In this document: positions 4,402-47,369 of the stretch, piece by piece
Position numbering within the stretch: the first letter of the stretch is position 1
Layout: each line of letters starts with the position of its first letter
Assembly: GCF_008152325.1 (NCBI RefSeq)
Contig: NZ_CP042243.1
Span: 1,369,026-1,433,025 of the forward strand
Source of the DNA: Crassaminicella thermophila
GTDB taxonomy: Bacteria; Bacillota; Clostridia; Peptostreptococcales; Thermotaleaceae
DNA length: 64,000 nt
Direction: 5' to 3'
The notes under the pieces: generated by a model
Databases searched by the model: none
Told to the model about the DNA's origin: nothing
What the model saw: the letters and a program-made list of their open reading frames with translations, nothing else
Program-made: the position numbers and the translations under genes

Positions 4402-4460
4402 AATAAAAAAAGCTCTTTGTCAAATAGTGTTGGTGAATAGAATCACAAAGTTAATTATTG

Positions 4461-4496
4461 GCCGTTTAAAACTGAATAGGTTTTAAACGGCTTTTA
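4461..4496 (+). terminator. Terminator after tRNA-Sec
   Basis: A 12-bp perfect stem, 4461-4472 (GCCGTTTAAAAC) pairing with 4480-4491, with a 7-nt loop and a TTTT tail. Confidence 0.9.
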
Positions 4497-4601
4497 AATT
4501 TAACAAATAATTATTAAGCTATAGATTTTATCATGGTTTTTATTTGTTATAAAATATATTTAATGAGATTGACTTTAAAAGAGGTTATGGGGGAGAAAAT
4601 A

Positions 4602-5351
4602 ATGAAAAAAATTTTGATTATAGTATTTATTTTATTTATTATTATGGTTATACAATCATTACCAATTATTATCTTAAAGGATATTGGTATGAAAAAAATA
4701 CATGGTAATTATGTAAATGTATACTATGATAAAGGTGATGATAAGGGTGGTAGGATTGTATTTAAAGAACTGGAAAATAGCGCGAAAGAAATTGGAAATA
4801 AATTAAACTATAAATTTGATTCTAAAATAGTGATTTATGTTTATAAAAATCAATCATTATTACATATTAGAAAATATGGTTTAGCTACACTAGCTATAGC
4901 ACCAGATTGGTATATAGGTGATAACAAAGGTTCCGTAGTGTTAATGGTTTCACCTCAAGCTAATGTAAAGGGACACAATATAAAGAGCATAATGAGTGCA
5001 GCAAAGCATGAACTTGTTCATGTAATTAATTATAGAATTAATCCTAATCTATCGTATTTTATAGATAATGGAGTTGCAACATATTTATCAAAACAAAGTC
5101 CTTATAAAAATTTCATTCAATATAATAGAATACCTTCTATAGAGTTTTTGGAGATTAAAGATGAATTAAAATTCGGAAATGCAGGAGGTTATCAGTATTC
5201 ATATACTTTTATTGAGTTTCTAGATAAAAAATATGGATGGGAAAGTGTGTTTGAATTGATAAAAGGAAATAAATTTTATGTAGAAATATTTTCTAAAACT
5301 AAACAGGAAATATATAATGAATGGGTAAAATATTTAAAGGAATATTATTAA
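4602..5351 (+). CDS. Peptidase-MA-like (gluzincin-fold) membrane-anchored protein
   Basis: Protein of 249 residues with an N-terminal hydrophobic anchor or signal (residues 2-24), so probably extracytoplasmic. The ATG at 4602 is chosen because GGGGGAGA lies 6 bp before it; an upstream in-frame ATG at 4533 lacks a site. The motif HELVH at residues 136-140 matches the HEXXH zinc-binding helix of peptidase-MA/gluzincin proteins. The second conserved segment reads FIDNGVATYLS, where family members usually have W-x-x-E-G-x-A-x-Y with Glu as third zinc ligand. Here that position is Asn156, preceded by Asp155. The protein may therefore have altered metal binding or be catalytically inactive. It is a single gene between tRNA-Sec and a decayed gene. 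Confidence 0.7.
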   Translation: MKKILIIVFILFIIMVIQSLPIIILKDIGMKKIHGNYVNVYYDKGDDKGGRIVFKELENSAKEIGNKLNYKFDSKIVIYVYKNQSLLHIRKYGLATLAIAPDWYIGDNKGSVVLMVSPQANVKGHNIKSIMSAAKHELVHVINYRINPNLSYFIDNGVATYLSKQSPYKNFIQYNRIPSIEFLEIKDELKFGNAGGYQYSYTFIEFLDKKYGWESVFELIKGNKFYVEIFSKTKQEIYNEWVKYLKEYY

Positions 5352-5378
5352 ATACTATGATTTATAGTATTTAATAAT
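5344..5378 (+). terminator. AT-rich hairpin after the peptidase-like gene
   Basis: A 15-bp perfect stem, 5344-5358 pairing with 5364-5378, overlapping the stop codon of the upstream gene. It has almost no G/C and no clear T tail, so terminator activity is uncertain. Confidence 0.4.
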
Positions 5379-5431
5379 AATGTTAAAGGGCACAATTTTA
5401 AATATAATAAAAAAGAAAAAGAGGTAATATT

Positions 5432-5898
5432 ATTGATAAATATGAAGAAATAAAATTGTTAATAGAAAAATTTTGTGATGAAAATTTAAATGAAGAATAC
5501 AAGGAAATGAGCTTAAAACTTTGTGAAAAACTCAACAAAATGAATCCATCTCCACTTTTAAAAGGAAGAAGCAAATCTTTAGCTTGTGGAATTGTTCATG
5601 CTATAGGATTTGTAAATTTTTTATTTGATTCTACGACAAAAATGTTATAGAGGATGTATATGAAGATAATGTAATAGATTTTAATAAATATGCTAAACAA
5701 AAAAGAAATAAAAGCAAAAGTGAATTATTAAATGAAGCACAAGAACTATTGTATATGGCATTTGATGAAGAAAACCCTAAAGAAATAATAAAATTAGCTA
5801 AAAAAGCACTATAAATATCTAAGGATTGTGCTGATGCATATATACTTTATGCTTTAAATTGGTTAAAAGAAAATTACTATATAAGTTTCATGCCATAA
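5432..5898 (+). pseudogene. Decayed gene: DUF6398-like start joined to TPR-like remnant
   Basis: No intact reading frame covers this stretch, but two pieces of recognisable protein do. Piece 1 (from about 5432 to 5650) resembles the start of DUF6398 proteins: LCEKLNKMNPSPLLKGRSKS followed by ACGIVHAIGFVNFLFDSTTK, then a stop at 5648. Piece 2 continues in another frame from about 5641 (EDVYEDNVIDFNKYAKQKR, then SELLNEAQELLYMAFDEENP and IIKLAKKAL). It is cut by TAA at 5812-5814 and resumes in the same frame as ISKDCADAYILYALNWLKE up to 5898. Related repeat proteins commonly read KALEISPDCADAY, so the TAA probably replaced a GAA. There is also no normal start codon near the GAGG site at 5421. 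A frameshift, a nonsense codon and a lost start together indicate a pseudogene, possibly of two neighbouring genes. Confidence 0.6.
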
Positions 5899-40892: not shown

Positions 40893-40985
40893 TATTTGTA
40901 TATTTAGTTTATTTAAACTATACCATGTCATTTTACTATTTATAAGAATATAATGGTACAAAAAACTAAAATGGAGTTGATAAGT

Positions 40986-41258
40986 GTGGTAAAAAATAAT
41001 GAAAAATACGTGATTATTTTTTCATCTAATTATCATGGATATTATATTGAACAACTGTTTAAAAGAAATGAGATTAAGAACACATTAAGGAAAGCACCTA
41101 TATCCATAGCAAAATCATGTCATTATGCTATTTATATACAAGATAAAGATTTAGAAAAAGCATTAGAATTGTTGAAAAATTCTAGAATATCCCCTCAAGG
41201 AATCTATGAAATTATTGAAATATCTGGTTATATAACTTATAAGAAGTTGCATATATAA
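40986..41258 (+). CDS. DUF3343 protein (putative Se/S carrier-like)
   Basis: About 90 residues: EKYVIIFSSNYHGYYIEQLF, then KAPISIAKSCHYAIYIQDKD, then LEKALELLKNSRISP. This fits DUF3343 proteins, small ferredoxin-like-fold proteins with a conserved Cys-Gly/His segment, often encoded near selenium genes and called putative Se/S carriers. Here the motif is SCH, not SCG. The GTG at 40986 is proposed as the start, 9 bp after TGGAG. The ATG at 40953 lies inside a TATAAT (40949-40954) that looks like its own -10 box; ATG 40971 is also possible. It is a single-gene unit. Confidence 0.7.
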   Translation: MVKNNEKYVIIFSSNYHGYYIEQLFKRNEIKNTLRKAPISIAKSCHYAIYIQDKDLEKALELLKNSRISPQGIYEIIEISGYITYKKLHI

Positions 41259-41342: not shown

Positions 41343-42878
41343 TTAAAACAAGCGTTTAAACAAACTCATATTTTTAAGATTTTCAATTTCTTTTTTTAGT
41401 ATATTATTTTGTGTATATAATTCTTCAATATCTAATTTTAATTTTTCCAGTTGTGTCTGATAAATTTGTATCTTGTTTAATAAATCTTTATTTTTTAATT
41501 CACTTAATTTATAATCTGATAGTATTTTATCATAATCTTTTTTTAGTTTTTCAATATTGTTTTTATAACTCGTATTTTTTTCATTATTTTTATAAATAGT
41601 GTTAATGTAATTTTTGTTTTGTAAATTCAATCGTTTTACTTCTTCCTTCAAATAAGAGATATTGCTTTCTAAAGACTTCAAAAGATTATTTTTCATTACT
41701 AATTCTTGATTTTTTTTGTATAATTCTAATTTTAACTTTTTTATGGAGTCAATAGATATATTATTTTTGTCTGTGGAGAGTATTTCATTTTTATTTAAAT
41801 TATTATTTCTTGAAGTCATAGAAAAATTTTGATTTGTTTCCTTATTATATAAGGGATGCTTTGTTACTTGTATAGTTATAGGTGTAATATTAGCTAGACT
41901 TTCAGATAAAATATAATTTGCATTATATTTTACAAATGAATTATTAGTAGGTTGAACGATTTTTACTAAATGAATAGAATCAGAGAATAATTTTAATGTT
42001 TCAGAATTTGTCCAAGTTGAATAACTGTTTGTAATGTTTGTAGTTTTGGCTGAATAATAAATGTGTTTTTTTGTAATTCCATAACAAATCATTAGGTTAT
42101 CTTGATAAAAAAATTGATGTCGTATAAATGGAGTATCCATTTCGAAAATTTTTGTTAAATTCGAAGTGGTGTTTTTTTTGCTATTGTAATAAATATATTT
42201 TACACAATAGTTTTTTTTATGTTTATCGATCCAACTTATATGGACGAGTCCATCTATATCAATAATGGCATCTAAGTAAAAATAATTCAAAAATATACTA
42301 TTACATAGAAAAACAGGATGAGTCCATTCATAAGATTTAGTAGTTAAGGTTATCATTAGCAAATCATAAATCATATTATTGTTGCTTAAATATATTAAAT
42401 ATAGGTGAGAATGTATGTCTTTAATGAGTATGTAAGGTTTTATGTTCTTTTTTAAATAAATGCGATTAAGCACCTTTTTTTTCCAATTGTCATTTTCTTT
42501 ATAGTAAGAAACAATAGACCACAAGTTAGGATCGGATAAGTTATGCCAGCAAAATAAAATGTAAGGAGAATCAAATAGAAATTTAATGCTAATATGTTTA
42601 AATATTTCTAAATGAATATCTACTTCATATAATAAATGACTAGTCCATATTTCTCCATCATAATAATAATAAATGAATTTTCCATTGCAGTCTAAAACGA
42701 TCATACCGATATTGCCATTAGAGTCAATATCAATATCAAATTCTAATATATCATTATTACAAACTTGGATTTTTTCATTGTTAATAAAATAATTAATTCC
42801 AATATGTGAATCTGAAGAAAAATGCATAATATCGTTGTTTGTATATAAAAGTATGTTTGTAGTTTTGTTTATAGACAT
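41343..42878 (-). CDS. Beta-rich repeat protein with long C-terminal coiled coil (module A)
   Basis: A 511-residue protein I cannot name. No signal peptide or TM is visible. Residues 1 to about 330 are aromatic- and asparagine-rich with recurring strand pairs ending in W or Y and D-x-D-x-N-G/DIDSNGNIG or DIDGLVHISW turns, which resemble BNR/sialidase-like beta-propeller blades. Residues about 365-500 form a long coiled coil (KKLKLELYKKNQELVMKNN, then SNISYLKEEVKRLNLQNKN), ending in a short basic tail MSLFKRLF. It is paralogous to the protein encoded at 43994-45340: both share NLW(S/T) followed by aromatic-rich strands and W-x-x-KKV. It is divergent from the cysteine-motif gene at 43069 and probably expressed with it. 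Likely a structural or binding protein of the spore surface; this is inference. Confidence 0.75.
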   Translation of the reverse strand: MSINKTTNILLYTNNDIMHFSSDSHIGINYFINNEKIQVCNNDILEFDIDIDSNGNIGMIVLDCNGKFIYYYYDGEIWTSHLLYEVDIHLEIFKHISIKFLFDSPYILFCWHNLSDPNLWSIVSYYKENDNWKKKVLNRIYLKKNIKPYILIKDIHSHLYLIYLSNNNMIYDLLMITLTTKSYEWTHPVFLCNSIFLNYFYLDAIIDIDGLVHISWIDKHKKNYCVKYIYYNSKKNTTSNLTKIFEMDTPFIRHQFFYQDNLMICYGITKKHIYYSAKTTNITNSYSTWTNSETLKLFSDSIHLVKIVQPTNNSFVKYNANYILSESLANITPITIQVTKHPLYNKETNQNFSMTSRNNNLNKNEILSTDKNNISIDSIKKLKLELYKKNQELVMKNNLLKSLESNISYLKEEVKRLNLQNKNYINTIYKNNEKNTSYKNNIEKLKKDYDKILSDYKLSELKNKDLLNKIQIYQTQLEKLKLDIEELYTQNNILKKEIENLKNMSLFKRLF

Positions 42879-42918
42879 TTATATCACCTACCTTAGTTAT
42901 ATATATTAATAGTAAATC

Positions 42919-42944
42919 TACTTTATGTTAAATATTTTATGAGT
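42919..42944 (-). promoter_or_regulatory. Possible sigma-K-like promoter (minus strand)
   Basis: On the minus strand, CATAAAGTA (42927-42919) fits CATAnnnTA, with AC at 42944-42943, 15 bp upstream. Spacing is one short of the usual 16-17, so the call is weak. Confidence 0.3.
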
Positions 42945-42963
42945 AAATTTTTGATCTTTAATC

Positions 42964-42991
42964 ACCAAAATAGAGGGATATACATAATATA
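42964..42991 (+). promoter_or_regulatory. Possible sigma-K-like promoter of module A plus-strand gene
   Basis: AC (42964-42965, in CACC), 17 bp, then CATAATATA (42983-42991), which fits the Bacillus sigma-K pattern mACm-N16/17-CATAnnnTA. It would give a leader of about 70 nt. The pattern is short, so chance is possible in AT-rich DNA. Confidence 0.4.
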
Positions 42992-43068
42992 CAAGTAGAA
43001 CAATAACATTAAATGGTTACTTAGAATTATTATTGAAATTATTTTATGAAAGTAAAGGGGGAAAATAT

Positions 43069-43881
43069 ATGTATAAGTCAACATCTTGTGGAACTAGTAT
43101 GTATACTCCAGGAGTAATTCCAGAAGAATTAAGGGAGCAGTTTGGAAATGCATGTGAGTTAGTATGCGTTCAGGTTCCTAAAGTTTATGATTCATGTTTA
43201 TTAAGAACATGTTTGGTAGGGGATCCCGACAAAGAAAAAACAGAAGATGGAATCTATTTTGATTCTGATTTACGCGTTAGAATAGATTGTAGTGCAGATG
43301 GTATAGTTAATCCAAGAGTAATTGGTCTTGTTCCTGGGTCATTTAAAATTATCAGCAAAAAACCTGTTGCTTCAGACCCAGATAGAAAGTTTATTAGTTT
43401 CACATATCAATTGAAAATACTATATGACGTAGTATTCGATGATGGTACAGTATCTAGAGATAATGAACTATTACTAAGAAGAAGTGAAACGGTTGGACCT
43501 TTATATTGTCCCGATTCAAAAGCAATTATTAGAGAATCAAAAGTAGATCAATCAGGTACAATTCATCCAGCAACAGATGAAGATGATGAAATTGTAAAAT
43601 TAGAAATTATAGCAAGAGTACTTGATGTTCAAATTGAGAGAGAGTGTACCTGTACTTGCGATCCCTATGATGATGTATGCTATGCAGTCTTTACAGTAGG
43701 AATTTATCACATTATTAAATGTGAATTAATAGTACAGCTAGTTATTCCAGCATTTGGATTCTGTCCACCACCACCACCATGTGAAAGAATGGGAGAGGCT
43801 TGTGAGCAATTTAATCAAGAATTACCACCAGATTTCTTCCCACCACAACTTGATCAATTTATTACTGGACCTGGAGTATAA
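43069..43881 (+). CDS. Cysteine-rich protein with KVYxxCxxRxC and DFFPPQ motifs (module A)
   Basis: A 270-residue protein I cannot name. ATG 43069 follows AAAGGGGG; an in-frame ATG at 43033 lacks a site. No signal peptide or TM. KVYDSCLLRTC is at residues 38-48. A middle of beta-type strands follows, then a cysteine cluster (CTCTCDPYDDVC, later FGFCPPPPPCE), and the C-terminus has DFFPPQ (255-260). Both motifs recur in the otherwise divergent protein at 45575. Similar Cys-framed KVYD motifs occur, as I recall, in uncharacterised clostridial spore proteins. Disulfide crosslinking in a spore coat or exosporium layer is a reasonable guess, not shown here. Confidence 0.75.
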   Translation: MYKSTSCGTSMYTPGVIPEELREQFGNACELVCVQVPKVYDSCLLRTCLVGDPDKEKTEDGIYFDSDLRVRIDCSADGIVNPRVIGLVPGSFKIISKKPVASDPDRKFISFTYQLKILYDVVFDDGTVSRDNELLLRRSETVGPLYCPDSKAIIRESKVDQSGTIHPATDEDDEIVKLEIIARVLDVQIERECTCTCDPYDDVCYAVFTVGIYHIIKCELIVQLVIPAFGFCPPPPPCERMGEACEQFNQELPPDFFPPQLDQFITGPGV

Positions 43882-43895
43882 TACAAATTTACAGA

Positions 43896-43940
43896 AAAAC
43901 AGAAGGGGATGTTCTATATTTGAACATCTTCTTCTGTTTT
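43896..43940. terminator. Long bidirectional terminator between modules A and B
   Basis: A 19-bp stem with two G-T pairs, 43896-43914 pairing with 43922-43940, 7-nt loop, with A-run on the left and T-run on the right. It serves the convergent genes on either side. Confidence 0.85.
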
Positions 43941-43993
43941 GTATTTAATATGGTAAATATTTGCATAACTTAGAAATAAACTTAGTAAAAATA

Positions 43994-45340
43994 TTATTTT
44001 AATAGATTTTTTAATTTTGTCCAAAAATGATTATTTGTGTTTTGAATGTTTATATGAAGTGTTGAAAGTAATTGTATAATTTCGTTCATTTTCCATTCAT
44101 TTATTTCTAGTTGTTTATTTATATCATTGAGCAATTTATTTACAATATCTTGTTTGTTTTTAATGTCTTCAAGGATATCTGTTGATTTTTGTAATTGGGA
44201 ATCTATACTTAACATTTCTTTATCTTCGTTTTTTGGGGATTCTTTTGACAAGTTTTTACAAACACAAATCTCTGTACTATTATATGTATTTGTTGAGTTA
44301 TTTTTAGGTAGTATTACATCTAGTCCAATTATAAAAAATTCATAATTTATTTGTAGTCCATAACTAATAGGCATTTTAAGTTGTGTCCATGATTTATAAT
44401 TATTTCCGATTATAGAAATTGGAAATAATTTGAGATTATAATTAGATTGAATTTTTTCAGGTTGACTATATGTATTATCTAATAAGTTTATAGTATTTGA
44501 AAAATAAGAATTGTTTTGTTTCCATAAAACTTTTAGATTGTTACCGTCTTGAAAAATGAAAGGATGAGTGCTATTAGAGCCTTCATTAGATAATCGTTTG
44601 ATTTCTGACCAATAGTTTTTAGATGAATTAATTTTAGTATTATGTAGATAGAATATCTCTAGATTATTGTTATAAAATCCGGACCACGTAATATGTGTAC
44701 CATTTTTACTATCACAAAATATAAATGGATGTGAATTGTCTTGCGAAATATGGCTTACTCTTATAGGCATACTCCATGTATTGTATGTAGTGTTGTATTT
44801 ACAATAATATATTTGATATTTTTTATCATATAAAGATTTAAAAACAATATGAATATTATGATAAGGATCGATATCTGAATGAAAAGGTAAATCATATTTT
44901 TCAGAGATAATATCACATACTTTCTTATTCACCCATGATTCATTATTCCAATAATGGTGTTTTAATGTCCAAAGATTAGAATGAATAATATTTGAAATGG
45001 CTATTAATATATGAATTTTGTTATTGACAATAAATAGCTTTAAGTTTTTGAACTTGTAAGATTTTGCATTATATTTTGTTAGACATCTACAATCCCATTT
45101 GTTATCTCTATAGATACAATATTTTAAATCACCTAAAGAAGAAATACTAACAAGATGAAATATACCAGAATCATCTATATCTACACAATAATCTATTATA
45201 TTTTCAGTAATTTTAACCGTTGAGTAGATTTCCTTATTTTTAATGATATTCATATATACGTTTTTGTTTTCCGTGTAAAAATAATATATAAATCCTGACT
45301 TGCTATAATGGATATATTGTATATTAGAAGTAAATTCCAT
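43994..45340 (-). CDS. Beta-rich repeat protein with C-terminal helical tail (module B)
   Basis: A 448-residue paralogue of the 41343-42878 product; function unknown. Residues 1 to about 300 show propeller-like strand repeats with VDIDDSGIFHLVSI, NLWTLKHHYWNNESWVNKKV, HSDIDPYHNIHIVFKS, and two HPFIF repeats (NSHPFIFCDSKNGTHITWS and STHPFIFQDGNNLKVLW). About residues 365-448 form a shorter coiled coil (LQKSTDILEDIKNKQDIVNK) ending in a basic amphipathic tail NHFWTKLKNLLK. No signal peptide or TM. GGAGGTG precedes its ATG on the minus strand. It is divergent from the gene at 45575. Confidence 0.75.
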   Translation of the reverse strand: MEFTSNIQYIHYSKSGFIYYFYTENKNVYMNIIKNKEIYSTVKITENIIDYCVDIDDSGIFHLVSISSLGDLKYCIYRDNKWDCRCLTKYNAKSYKFKNLKLFIVNNKIHILIAISNIIHSNLWTLKHHYWNNESWVNKKVCDIISEKYDLPFHSDIDPYHNIHIVFKSLYDKKYQIYYCKYNTTYNTWSMPIRVSHISQDNSHPFIFCDSKNGTHITWSGFYNNNLEIFYLHNTKINSSKNYWSEIKRLSNEGSNSTHPFIFQDGNNLKVLWKQNNSYFSNTINLLDNTYSQPEKIQSNYNLKLFPISIIGNNYKSWTQLKMPISYGLQINYEFFIIGLDVILPKNNSTNTYNSTEICVCKNLSKESPKNEDKEMLSIDSQLQKSTDILEDIKNKQDIVNKLLNDINKQLEINEWKMNEIIQLLSTLHINIQNTNNHFWTKLKNLLK

Positions 45341-45574
45341 TAAAATACACCTCCAGTTTGTATATAGATTTGTCCTATTATAATGTATTTGTAAAAAATA
45401 AAAAAATGATATGTAATATAAGTTTTATATAAATTTTTGAAAATTATAATTTATATAAATCTAATATTTAATAATGAAAATAAATTTTAAATCATATGAT
45501 AGTATGAGAGAGATTATGATAAAAGTACAGTTTGTATAATGCATAAATATATAAAAAGAAAGGGGACATGATAG

Positions 45575-46327
45575 ATGGAGAAGAGTATTTCTCATACTAA
45601 TCAATCAATACATCGTAAAATTACTGAACCTGCTCCATATTCTACATATGATAGTCATATAAACATACAGACTAATATAAAACAATCCAAACAAGACATG
45701 ACAGAACCAATATGTATTTTAGCTGATAAGGTTTACTCTTATTGTCAGCAAAGAGATTGTTTTCCAAGGTTTAGGATGGAGACATCAAATAAAGGAGAAG
45801 AACTTCAATTCATCGGAATAAATTTCCAAGAAGGATATATATCTGAAGGAACGTTAAAAGTAACACCAATAGGACCTAAAAGACCCAATTTTTCAAGAGT
45901 AAAGTTTATCTTAAAAATTCCTTTTACAATAAAATTAAGAAATGCTTCATCTGGTGATATTGTGAGTATGAATGGTTTATTGCCAGATATGATAAAAGAT
46001 GTTGTTCTATTTATGCCAGAAGCAAGAAATGAATTTAATTACAGAATTGTTGTGGAAACACGTTCAGAAGTTTTAGCACCTCCAGAAATTATTGATAATC
46101 ATATTGAAATTCCAATAGGAGTATTATCAGTAATTAGAGTGGTTGGAAGGGTTCATTTATTGATACCAGTCTATAGTTTGCAGCTTGAACCACCTGAAGC
46201 TGAGAATTTTGAAGAATCTGAAAAATCTATAAGCCAAGAGTTTGATAATCGTCCATTTCCAGATGATTTTTTTCCACCTCAATTTGAAGATTTAGATATT
46301 GGTATACAGATGCTTAAGAAAGAATAA
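45575..46327 (+). CDS. Protein with KVYxxCxxRxC and DFFPPQ motifs (module B)
   Basis: A 250-residue protein with no named family. Residues 1-50 are polar; KVYSYCQQRDC is at 52-62; beta strands follow (FIGINFQEGYISEGTLKVTP, KFILKIPFTIKLRN, GVLSVIRVVGRVHLLIPVYS); and DFFPPQ is at 231-236 in PFPDDFFPPQFEDLD. It shares only these end motifs and general strand pattern with the 43069 product, and it has far fewer cysteines. AAAGGGG precedes the ATG. The stop is 49 bp before a glycosyltransferase gene, possibly one transcript. Confidence 0.75.
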   Translation: MEKSISHTNQSIHRKITEPAPYSTYDSHINIQTNIKQSKQDMTEPICILADKVYSYCQQRDCFPRFRMETSNKGEELQFIGINFQEGYISEGTLKVTPIGPKRPNFSRVKFILKIPFTIKLRNASSGDIVSMNGLLPDMIKDVVLFMPEARNEFNYRIVVETRSEVLAPPEIIDNHIEIPIGVLSVIRVVGRVHLLIPVYSLQLEPPEAENFEESEKSISQEFDNRPFPDDFFPPQFEDLDIGIQMLKKE

Positions 46328-46376: not shown

Positions 46377-47369
46377 ATGAACGTATTATTTCAAATAAGA
46401 AAAGATTATTTAAGTAATATTGCAGGAGATAGTATTATAATGCAAAATCTAAAAAAAAATTTAATAAATTTTGGAATAAGGATAGATGTTTGCACTGATA
46501 CTAAGATAAATCTAAATAAGTATGAAATCGTTCACATTTTTAATACGATAAGAGTACAGGAAAGTTATCAATTTATGAAACATGCAAAAAATAATAATAA
46601 AAAAATAGTTTTAACACCAATATACTGGGATTTAAGAAATTATTTTAAAGATACAAAACAGCAAAAAAAACTAGAATCTTGGTATCGTAGTGAAAAAAAG
46701 AGGAAATTTTTGTTTGATAATTGTGATATATATTTACCGCATTGCTATAGTGAAGCAGCATTAATTATAAAAAATTACAATACTTCGTCAAAGTATAAAT
46801 GTATCCCTTATGGGGTAGATGAAAACTTTTCTAATGGAAGTAAGCGTTATCTTATAAATACATATGGAATAGATGATTACATTTTGTGTGTAGGAAGAAT
46901 CAATTACCAGAAAAATCAGCTTGGTTTAATTAAAGCAATTTCAAAAGAAAAAATACCAATAGTACTAGTAGGTTCTGTTAATGATAAGGATTATCTTAAA
47001 CAATGTATGAAAGTAAGAAGCGAGAATATATACTTATTAGAAAATATAAAAACATCAGAATTAAATTCAATTTATAAAAGTGCAAGGGTCCATGTGTTAC
47101 CTAGTTGGCTTGAATACCCAGGCCTTGCAAATCTTGAAGCAGGTATGGCTGGATGTAATGTAGTAACAACAGAGATCGGTTCAACAAAAGAGGTTTTTGG
47201 AGAGTTTGTAAGATATTGTAATCCTTATGATAATGAATCCATATACAAAGAAGTTATGGAATCATTTGAAGAAAAAGGAAATGGTTTGTTTAGAGATTTT
47301 ATTAGAGAAAATTATACATGGAAAAAGGTTGCAAAGAAAATTTTAGAAATTTATTTATCTTTAATATAA
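46377..47369 (+). CDS. Glycosyltransferase, GT4-like
   Basis: A 330-residue GT-B fold protein. ATG 46377 follows AAAAGGGTG; an earlier in-frame start at 46299 overlaps the previous gene. The C-terminal nucleotide-sugar domain begins ILCVGRINYQKNQLGLIKAI, continues IYLLENIKTSELNSIYKSAR, and has the donor-binding motif SWLEYPGLANLEAGMAGCNVV with two Glu (E-x7-E). Donor and acceptor are unknown. It lies between the spore-surface candidate genes and a sugar-nucleotide pathway, so it may glycosylate one of those proteins. Confidence 0.85.
   Translation: MNVLFQIRKDYLSNIAGDSIIMQNLKKNLINFGIRIDVCTDTKINLNKYEIVHIFNTIRVQESYQFMKHAKNNNKKIVLTPIYWDLRNYFKDTKQQKKLESWYRSEKKRKFLFDNCDIYLPHCYSEAALIIKNYNTSSKYKCIPYGVDENFSNGSKRYLINTYGIDDYILCVGRINYQKNQLGLIKAISKEKIPIVLVGSVNDKDYLKQCMKVRSENIYLLENIKTSELNSIYKSARVHVLPSWLEYPGLANLEAGMAGCNVVTTEIGSTKEVFGEFVRYCNPYDNESIYKEVMESFEEKGNGLFRDFIRENYTWKKVAKKILEIYLSLI

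Follow-up and report, generated by a model that had tools for sequence, protein, structure and literature searches.

A probable spore-surface module in Clostridia: divergent gene pairs of a lectin-like propeller and a KVY-motif protein

Introduction

The window analysed here is a stretch of 64,000 nucleotides from Crassaminicella thermophila (contig NZ_CP042243.1, positions 1,369,026 to 1,433,025 of the forward strand), a bacterium with a genome of 3.08 Mb in two contigs. The window contains two adjacent pairs of divergent genes. In each pair, a minus-strand gene for a propeller protein with a coiled coil faces a plus-strand gene for a protein carrying a KVY motif, referred to below as a KVY protein. 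The divergent pairing of propeller and KVY genes occurs in Clostridia far beyond chance, and each unit is probably a two-gene structural module that the mother cell contributes to the spore surface. This interpretation draws on several observations: promoters of the sigma-K type, the exosporium locus with csxA and CsxC in relatives, nearby genes for collagen-like proteins and glycosyltransferases, and distant similarity to the spore protein BMQ_0737. The individual parts resemble known kinds of protein, namely coat or exosporium proteins and lectin propellers; the module itself is unnamed in Pfam and NCBIfam. A literature search in an open library, combining propellers with the spore coat or exosporium in Clostridium, found no paper on it.

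To our knowledge, the outer spore layers of clostridia share few proteins with those of Bacillus, most of their proteins are unnamed, and their construction is largely open. The pair is widespread among Clostridia genomes and, with its promoter pattern and propeller head, provides a testable handle on this surface.

In the proposed arrangement, the KVY protein would be a beta-rich, often cysteine (Cys)-rich structural subunit that is produced late under sigma-K in most pair types, may self-assemble, and would be deposited in the outer coat or exosporium. Cross-linking is probable in the Cys-rich types only. The propeller on its coiled-coil stalk would be the dedicated partner of the KVY protein, probably docking to the KVY layer, perhaps via the coiled coil. 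Its head may be glycan-binding or scaffolding and tied to sugars supplied by the neighbouring glycosyltransferase genes.

Gene pairs in the window

The four genes are as follows (lengths in amino acids, aa):
41343..42878 (-): propeller A (A-), 511 aa; propeller-family domain, coiled coil and short amphipathic tail (..LFKRLF), assigned by profile membership
43069..43881 (+): KVY protein A (A+), 270 aa; beta-rich, 15 Cys, KVYDSC and FFPPQ motifs
43994..45340 (-): propeller B (B-), 448 aa; seven-bladed beta-propeller at about residues 5-345 and coiled coil at 379-447, from a predicted model
45575..46327 (+): KVY protein B (B+), 250 aa; KVYSYCQQRDC and DFFPPQ motifs, same family as A+

An earlier reading of the window from its sequence alone (the sequence-only reading) had described two units of this layout and could name no family for the four proteins. 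All four open reading frames (ORFs) were recovered at these positions, and scans of the proteins against Pfam and NCBIfam gave no match at the curated cut-off. The intergenic DNA between the divergent partners measures 190 bases in pair A and 234 bases in pair B. The A+ start is placed at ATG 43069, which is directly preceded by AGGGGG; a longer product starting at TTG 43033 is possible. Read by eye, the four sequences show no apparent hydrophobic signal, which is what deposition by the mother cell would predict. A third pair (C) is located elsewhere in the same genome, at 4447-5688(-)/5884-6834(+) of locus L135; loci outside the window are cited below by such labels.

Conservation of the divergent pairing

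Among 391 Clostridia genomes, the KVY profile matches 229 and the propeller profile 121. Of 126 propeller genes listed from the class, at least 75 are faced by a KVY gene within 1.5 kb. This count is a lower bound: several propellers scored as unpaired, for example those of L289, L290, L296, L304 and L308, proved to be paired once their flanks were read. The survey of gene neighbourhoods thus found homologues mostly together rather than apart, and the retention of the pairing that had been supposed from the window is seen across the class. For the type-C KVY gene, 80 loci in named genomes were considered. The propeller lies directly upstream and divergent in 29 of them, or 30 if L139 is included, where a small ORF call intervenes between the two genes. 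Nearly all paired type-C loci fall in the better-scoring half, and most of the others face something else.

The propeller proteins

The two minus-strand proteins were checked for unrelatedness, and both belong to one family: A- and B- match directly with an E-value of 9.5e-4 in a whole-genome search and are strong members of a single profile. Orthologues of each, with the same gene layout, are present in relatives, of which 59 were searched. The structure of B- was predicted with AlphaFold2 from 30 aligned family members. The resulting model is a confident beta-propeller (mean predicted local distance difference test score, pLDDT, 87.2; about 95 over most of residues 10-340) that continues into a 69-residue C-terminal helix, and its seven blades were counted from both strand order and fold match. 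The sequence-only reading had described the minus-strand products as coiled-coil repeat proteins; the coiled-coil tail is borne out, but the main body is a predicted propeller. The closest solved folds to the B- model are the Photorhabdus PLL/PHL lectins (Z 22-23.8), the best match having Z 23.8 over 294 residues, a root mean square deviation of 3.2 and 12% identity. In the family, the coil is often followed by a short basic or amphipathic tail.

At type-C loci, small coil-like ORFs with the start MMxYxxxNxNFIPK follow or replace the propeller:
L121:416-985: small coil-like ORF behind a type-C propeller that lacks a coil
L123:6247-6684: same arrangement as in L121
L125:5153-5578: small coil-like ORF facing the type-C KVY gene, no propeller seen between
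L218:2566-3012: same arrangement as in L125

The split arrangement looks as if propeller and stalk were two genes. Because the coil-like ORF of L125 and L218 faces KVY with no propeller seen between, these short and weakly scoring ORFs suggest that the coil may be the part kept with KVY.

The KVY proteins

A+ and B+ are related with a profile-profile probability of 98.2 (E 3e-14). They share the KVYxxCxxRxC start and a C-terminal VQLxIPAxGFC..FFPPQ block, and with the common profile of the minus-strand proteins this agrees with the paralogy noticed earlier from the KVYxxC and DFFPPQ motifs. Type-C KVY proteins show KVYD and a C-terminal PVQLCVLSTGF..LFPxQ pattern, and their direct profile comparison with A+ and B+ is weak (probability 11-13, E about 0.002). 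Class-wide members, among them L224, L226 and L228, bridge the types, since each matches profiles A, B and C at once. The motifs at both termini, these intermediates and the common partner are the basis for regarding type C as homologous to A+ and B+.

The predicted model of A+ is beta-rich with long strands and of moderate confidence (pLDDT 74.9). A fold search with it returned no Foldseek match at E 0.001, the best VIA match having Z 2.8, and a sequence search of the PDB with the KVY profile or the L366 protein gave no match.

The sole spore-related model that KVY proteins match among 18,950 NCBIfam models is BMQ_0737 (NF052457), a protein of the outermost layers of Bacillus megaterium spores (PMC4656864). 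The L228 protein covers positions 1-184 of 199 of this model (E 2.3e-4, 21.4 bits) and that of L226 scores 0.021; in these relatives the match starts near the KVYD motif. The window proteins do not match the BMQ_0737 model, and a search of their own genome with it found nothing.

KVY domains also occur in larger proteins. DUF11-repeat proteins of about 1,030-2,400 aa at L131:3211-6303, L132:3798-7058 and L130:6323-11878 carry a KVY domain or the C-terminal block, and one of them also has DUF4183. At L377:7126-8682, a KVY domain is fused to a YVTN/YncE-type propeller in the same cluster as a propeller/KVY pair; further fusions of this type are possible at L295:6883-8340, L297:4541-6007 and L298:10840-12351.

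Promoters

Intergenic regions were searched for a strict sigma-K pattern, AC-N16/17-CATANNNTA. It is present before 11 of 13 type-A KVY genes, 4 of 5 type-C genes and 10 of 16 genes of the Clostridiaceae-and-other set, compared with 0.33, 0.03 and 0.28 expected in shuffles; these counts are not independent, as orthologues share ancestry, and three separate pair types agree. In control genes of the same loci, the pattern was found in 4 of 173. The window contains one such site:
42964..42991 (+): sigma-K-type promoter of A+, AC-N17-CATAATATA, in full ACCAAAATAGAGGGATATACATAATATA, 77 nucleotides before the ATG

KVY expression would accordingly be placed under sigma-K, as far as the motifs indicate, in three of the four pair types. 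For propeller genes, the strict pattern was found 0 times in all sets and no clear promoter match was seen. For a promoter region shared by the partners, as proposed by the sequence-only reading, the motifs give no evidence: clear sigma-K sites stand before plus-strand genes only, and for B+ no strict one was found.

On the propeller side, the window has a weakly indicated element:
45368..45377 (-): SpoIIID-like box TAGGACAAAT upstream of B-; seen for type B in three genomes (the window and two orthologous loci)

The box matches the SpoIIID consensus WWRRACARNY. Candidate sigma-E sites on the propeller side (7 of 14 in type B and 4 of 13 in type A, compared with 0.9 and 0.7 expected) were dropped, because several of them arise from reading a palindromic -10 box backwards or are too distant from the start codon to be trusted.

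The promoter data also bear on a different assignment, in which the pair would serve growing cells, at the cell surface, in adhesion or otherwise, and have no role in the spore. Lectin-like propellers occur in adhesion, and divergent pairs are common in many systems. However, the strict sigma-K motifs, the csxA/CsxC locus, the BMQ_0737 match and the lack of an apparent secretion signal make such a role very improbable.

Descent of the pairs

Propeller and KVY trees were constructed for 62 pairs, comprising types A, B and C and the Clostridiaceae type (K). In either tree a single branch separates each type from the rest, with 4 changes compared with 38 in shuffles; support in the KVY tree is low for B and K (76 and 57). 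The matching clades indicate that the pairs have been inherited together. Type A is joined to K in the KVY tree (support 97), A+ being nearer to the Clostridiaceae KVY proteins than to B+, from which it follows that A and B would have split before this bacterial family arose. Judged by the trees, the adjacent pairs A and B are ancient paralogues rather than the product of a recent tandem duplication; the earlier description of the units as tandemly duplicated holds for their layout, but not as a recent event.

The partners evolve at different rates. Mean within-type identity is 35% for the propeller and 73% for KVY in type A, and 30% and 47% in type B, and the propeller is the faster-diverging member of the pair in all 290 within-type comparisons. 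Partner identities correlate within pair types (r 0.53-0.92), which relatedness alone would also produce.

Faster divergence of the propeller is also what might be seen if it were an assembly factor or chaperone that binds KVY in the mother-cell cytoplasm, brings it to the surface of the forespore and is lost afterwards. One dedicated, co-inherited propeller per shell-protein type, the recurrent basic or amphipathic C-terminal tails and the occurrence of propellers beside unrelated Cys-rich proteins fit this role as well. Nevertheless, the nearest folds are glycan-binding lectins rather than any known chaperone fold, and glycosyltransferases are recurrent neighbours. An assembly factor is considered a possible but less likely alternative to a propeller that stays on the spore surface.

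Assessment of the spore-surface interpretation

Several points weigh against placing the pairs on the spore surface as a two-part structure. For approximately 50 of the 126 propellers, the matches listed include no KVY gene within 1.5 kb; L291, L293, L306 and L307, where no KVY gene faces the propeller, are real exceptions. The propellers of L305 and L309-L313 adjoin a Cys-rich protein of another family. A strict sigma-K site is absent before the B+ genes (0 of 14), and B+ holds only 3 Cys, compared with 15 in A+, so cross-linking cannot be general. The best BMQ_0737 score, 21.4 bits, is far under the curated cut-off of 71, and the lectin fold of the propeller is no proof of sugar binding. The spore-surface assignment of these genes comes from sequence and genomic context.

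The propellers without a KVY neighbour, the wider occurrence of KVY than of propeller among the genomes and the clear promoter motif on the KVY side only would also be compatible with a divergent layout that is mere ancestral gene order, the two proteins acting independently on the spore surface. This explanation appears improbable, as the pairing persists in numerous genomic surroundings and in four types whose partners are inherited together, despite propeller identities of about 30-36% within type. The two-part spore-surface system suggested by the sequence-only reading is supported in part, by the conserved pairing, the sigma-K motifs and the exosporium-locus context in relatives, and is qualified by the many propellers with no detected KVY partner.

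A broader version of this interpretation is more tentative. The pairs may represent a general spore-surface assembly module of Clostridia, in which one shell superfamily would include CsxA and, distantly, BMQ_0737, and each member would be docked and positioned by its own lectin-like propeller/coiled-coil protein, inherited along with it; duplicated pairs would then provide distinct surface layers.

Neighbouring genes and other partners

To the left of the pairs lie ornithine aminomutase genes (ora names by sequence recognition), a gene for an alanine-racemase-type protein and one for a Se/S carrier-like protein. On the right, glycosyltransferase and nucleotide-sugar genes are followed by rrf2-nifS-nifU-mnmA-alaS. 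Two of these neighbours, and the alternative Cys-rich partner mentioned above, are listed here:
40953..41258 (+): Se/S carrier-like small protein (PF11823; Pfam E 5.2e-16)
46377..47369 (+): GT4-type glycosyltransferase (Pfam Glycos_transf_1); start inferred, ORF opens at 46299
L305:4853-6310(-)/6465-7160(+): propeller and divergent gene of the other Cys-rich family (MKDIQEIM.., 13-23 Cys); members also adjoin the propeller in L309-L313

Of 82 propeller genes, 31 have a homologue of the GT4-type glycosyltransferase within 5 kb. A homologue of the PF11823 protein occurs within the same distance of 45 of the 82, often directly adjoining (e.g. L121:5713-6000, L298:10466-10744). A class-V aminotransferase or cysteine-desulfurase-like gene is near 27 of the 82, in a set that could combine more than one family. 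These neighbours may point to a connection between sulfur or selenium metabolism and the Cys-rich spore proteins. Genes for YkwD/CAP spore-type proteins are found near 15 of the 82 (L127:8433-9320, L224:1831-2574 and others).

The Cys-rich partner of L305 has a weak CryBP1 match (E 4.5e-5). This 23-Cys protein was considered as CsxA itself and rejected as too rare, being present in only 5 of 195 family genomes.

Comparison with known systems

The B- model has the seven-bladed propeller fold of the Photorhabdus PLL/PHL lectins, although identity to them is just 12%. We know of no coiled-coil stalk or sporulation context among those lectins. With the BMQ_0737 family of B. megaterium the likeness is distant: two KVY relatives cover most of its model, but below the cut-off. 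Some large multidomain DUF11/DUF4183 proteins contain a type-B KVY domain; these are single large proteins and were not seen paired with propellers.

Another parallel is the CsxA locus of Clostridium sporogenes. CsxA forms a self-assembling lattice, the basal layer of the exosporium (PMC7333573), and csxA, bclA and bclB lie in the interval from pheT/zapA to U32 (PMC7333573). In this interval csxA adjoins a highly conserved divergent ORF together with collagen-like and glycosyltransferase genes (PMC7333573, PMC4942563), and CsxC has been detected in the exosporium (PMC4942563). In other Clostridiaceae, the same interval contains KVY/propeller pairs and a CsxC-family gene. The order in L344-L346 is pheT, zapA, a DUF4489 Cys-rich gene, KVY, propeller, KVY, a CsxC-family gene (NF045794, E 8.2e-56) and a U32 peptidase gene, where pheT, zapA and U32 were recognised from sequence. 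In L300, a collagen-like gene adjoins the propeller/KVY pair.

The window differs from this locus in position, its pairs being situated between the ora genes and nifS/nifU, and neither A+ (270 aa, 15 Cys) nor B+ (250 aa, 3 Cys) has the size and Cys profile of CsxA, which has 299 aa and 25 Cys (PMC7333573, PMC4942563). The KVY protein of L366 (L366:8590-9483), encoded near zapA and facing a propeller, has 297 aa and 22 Cys; compared by description, it is like CsxA in size, Cys content and divergent partner. By this analogy, csxA and its divergent ORF are predicted to be a KVY/propeller pair, which would offer an identity for this conserved and so far uncharacterised ORF.

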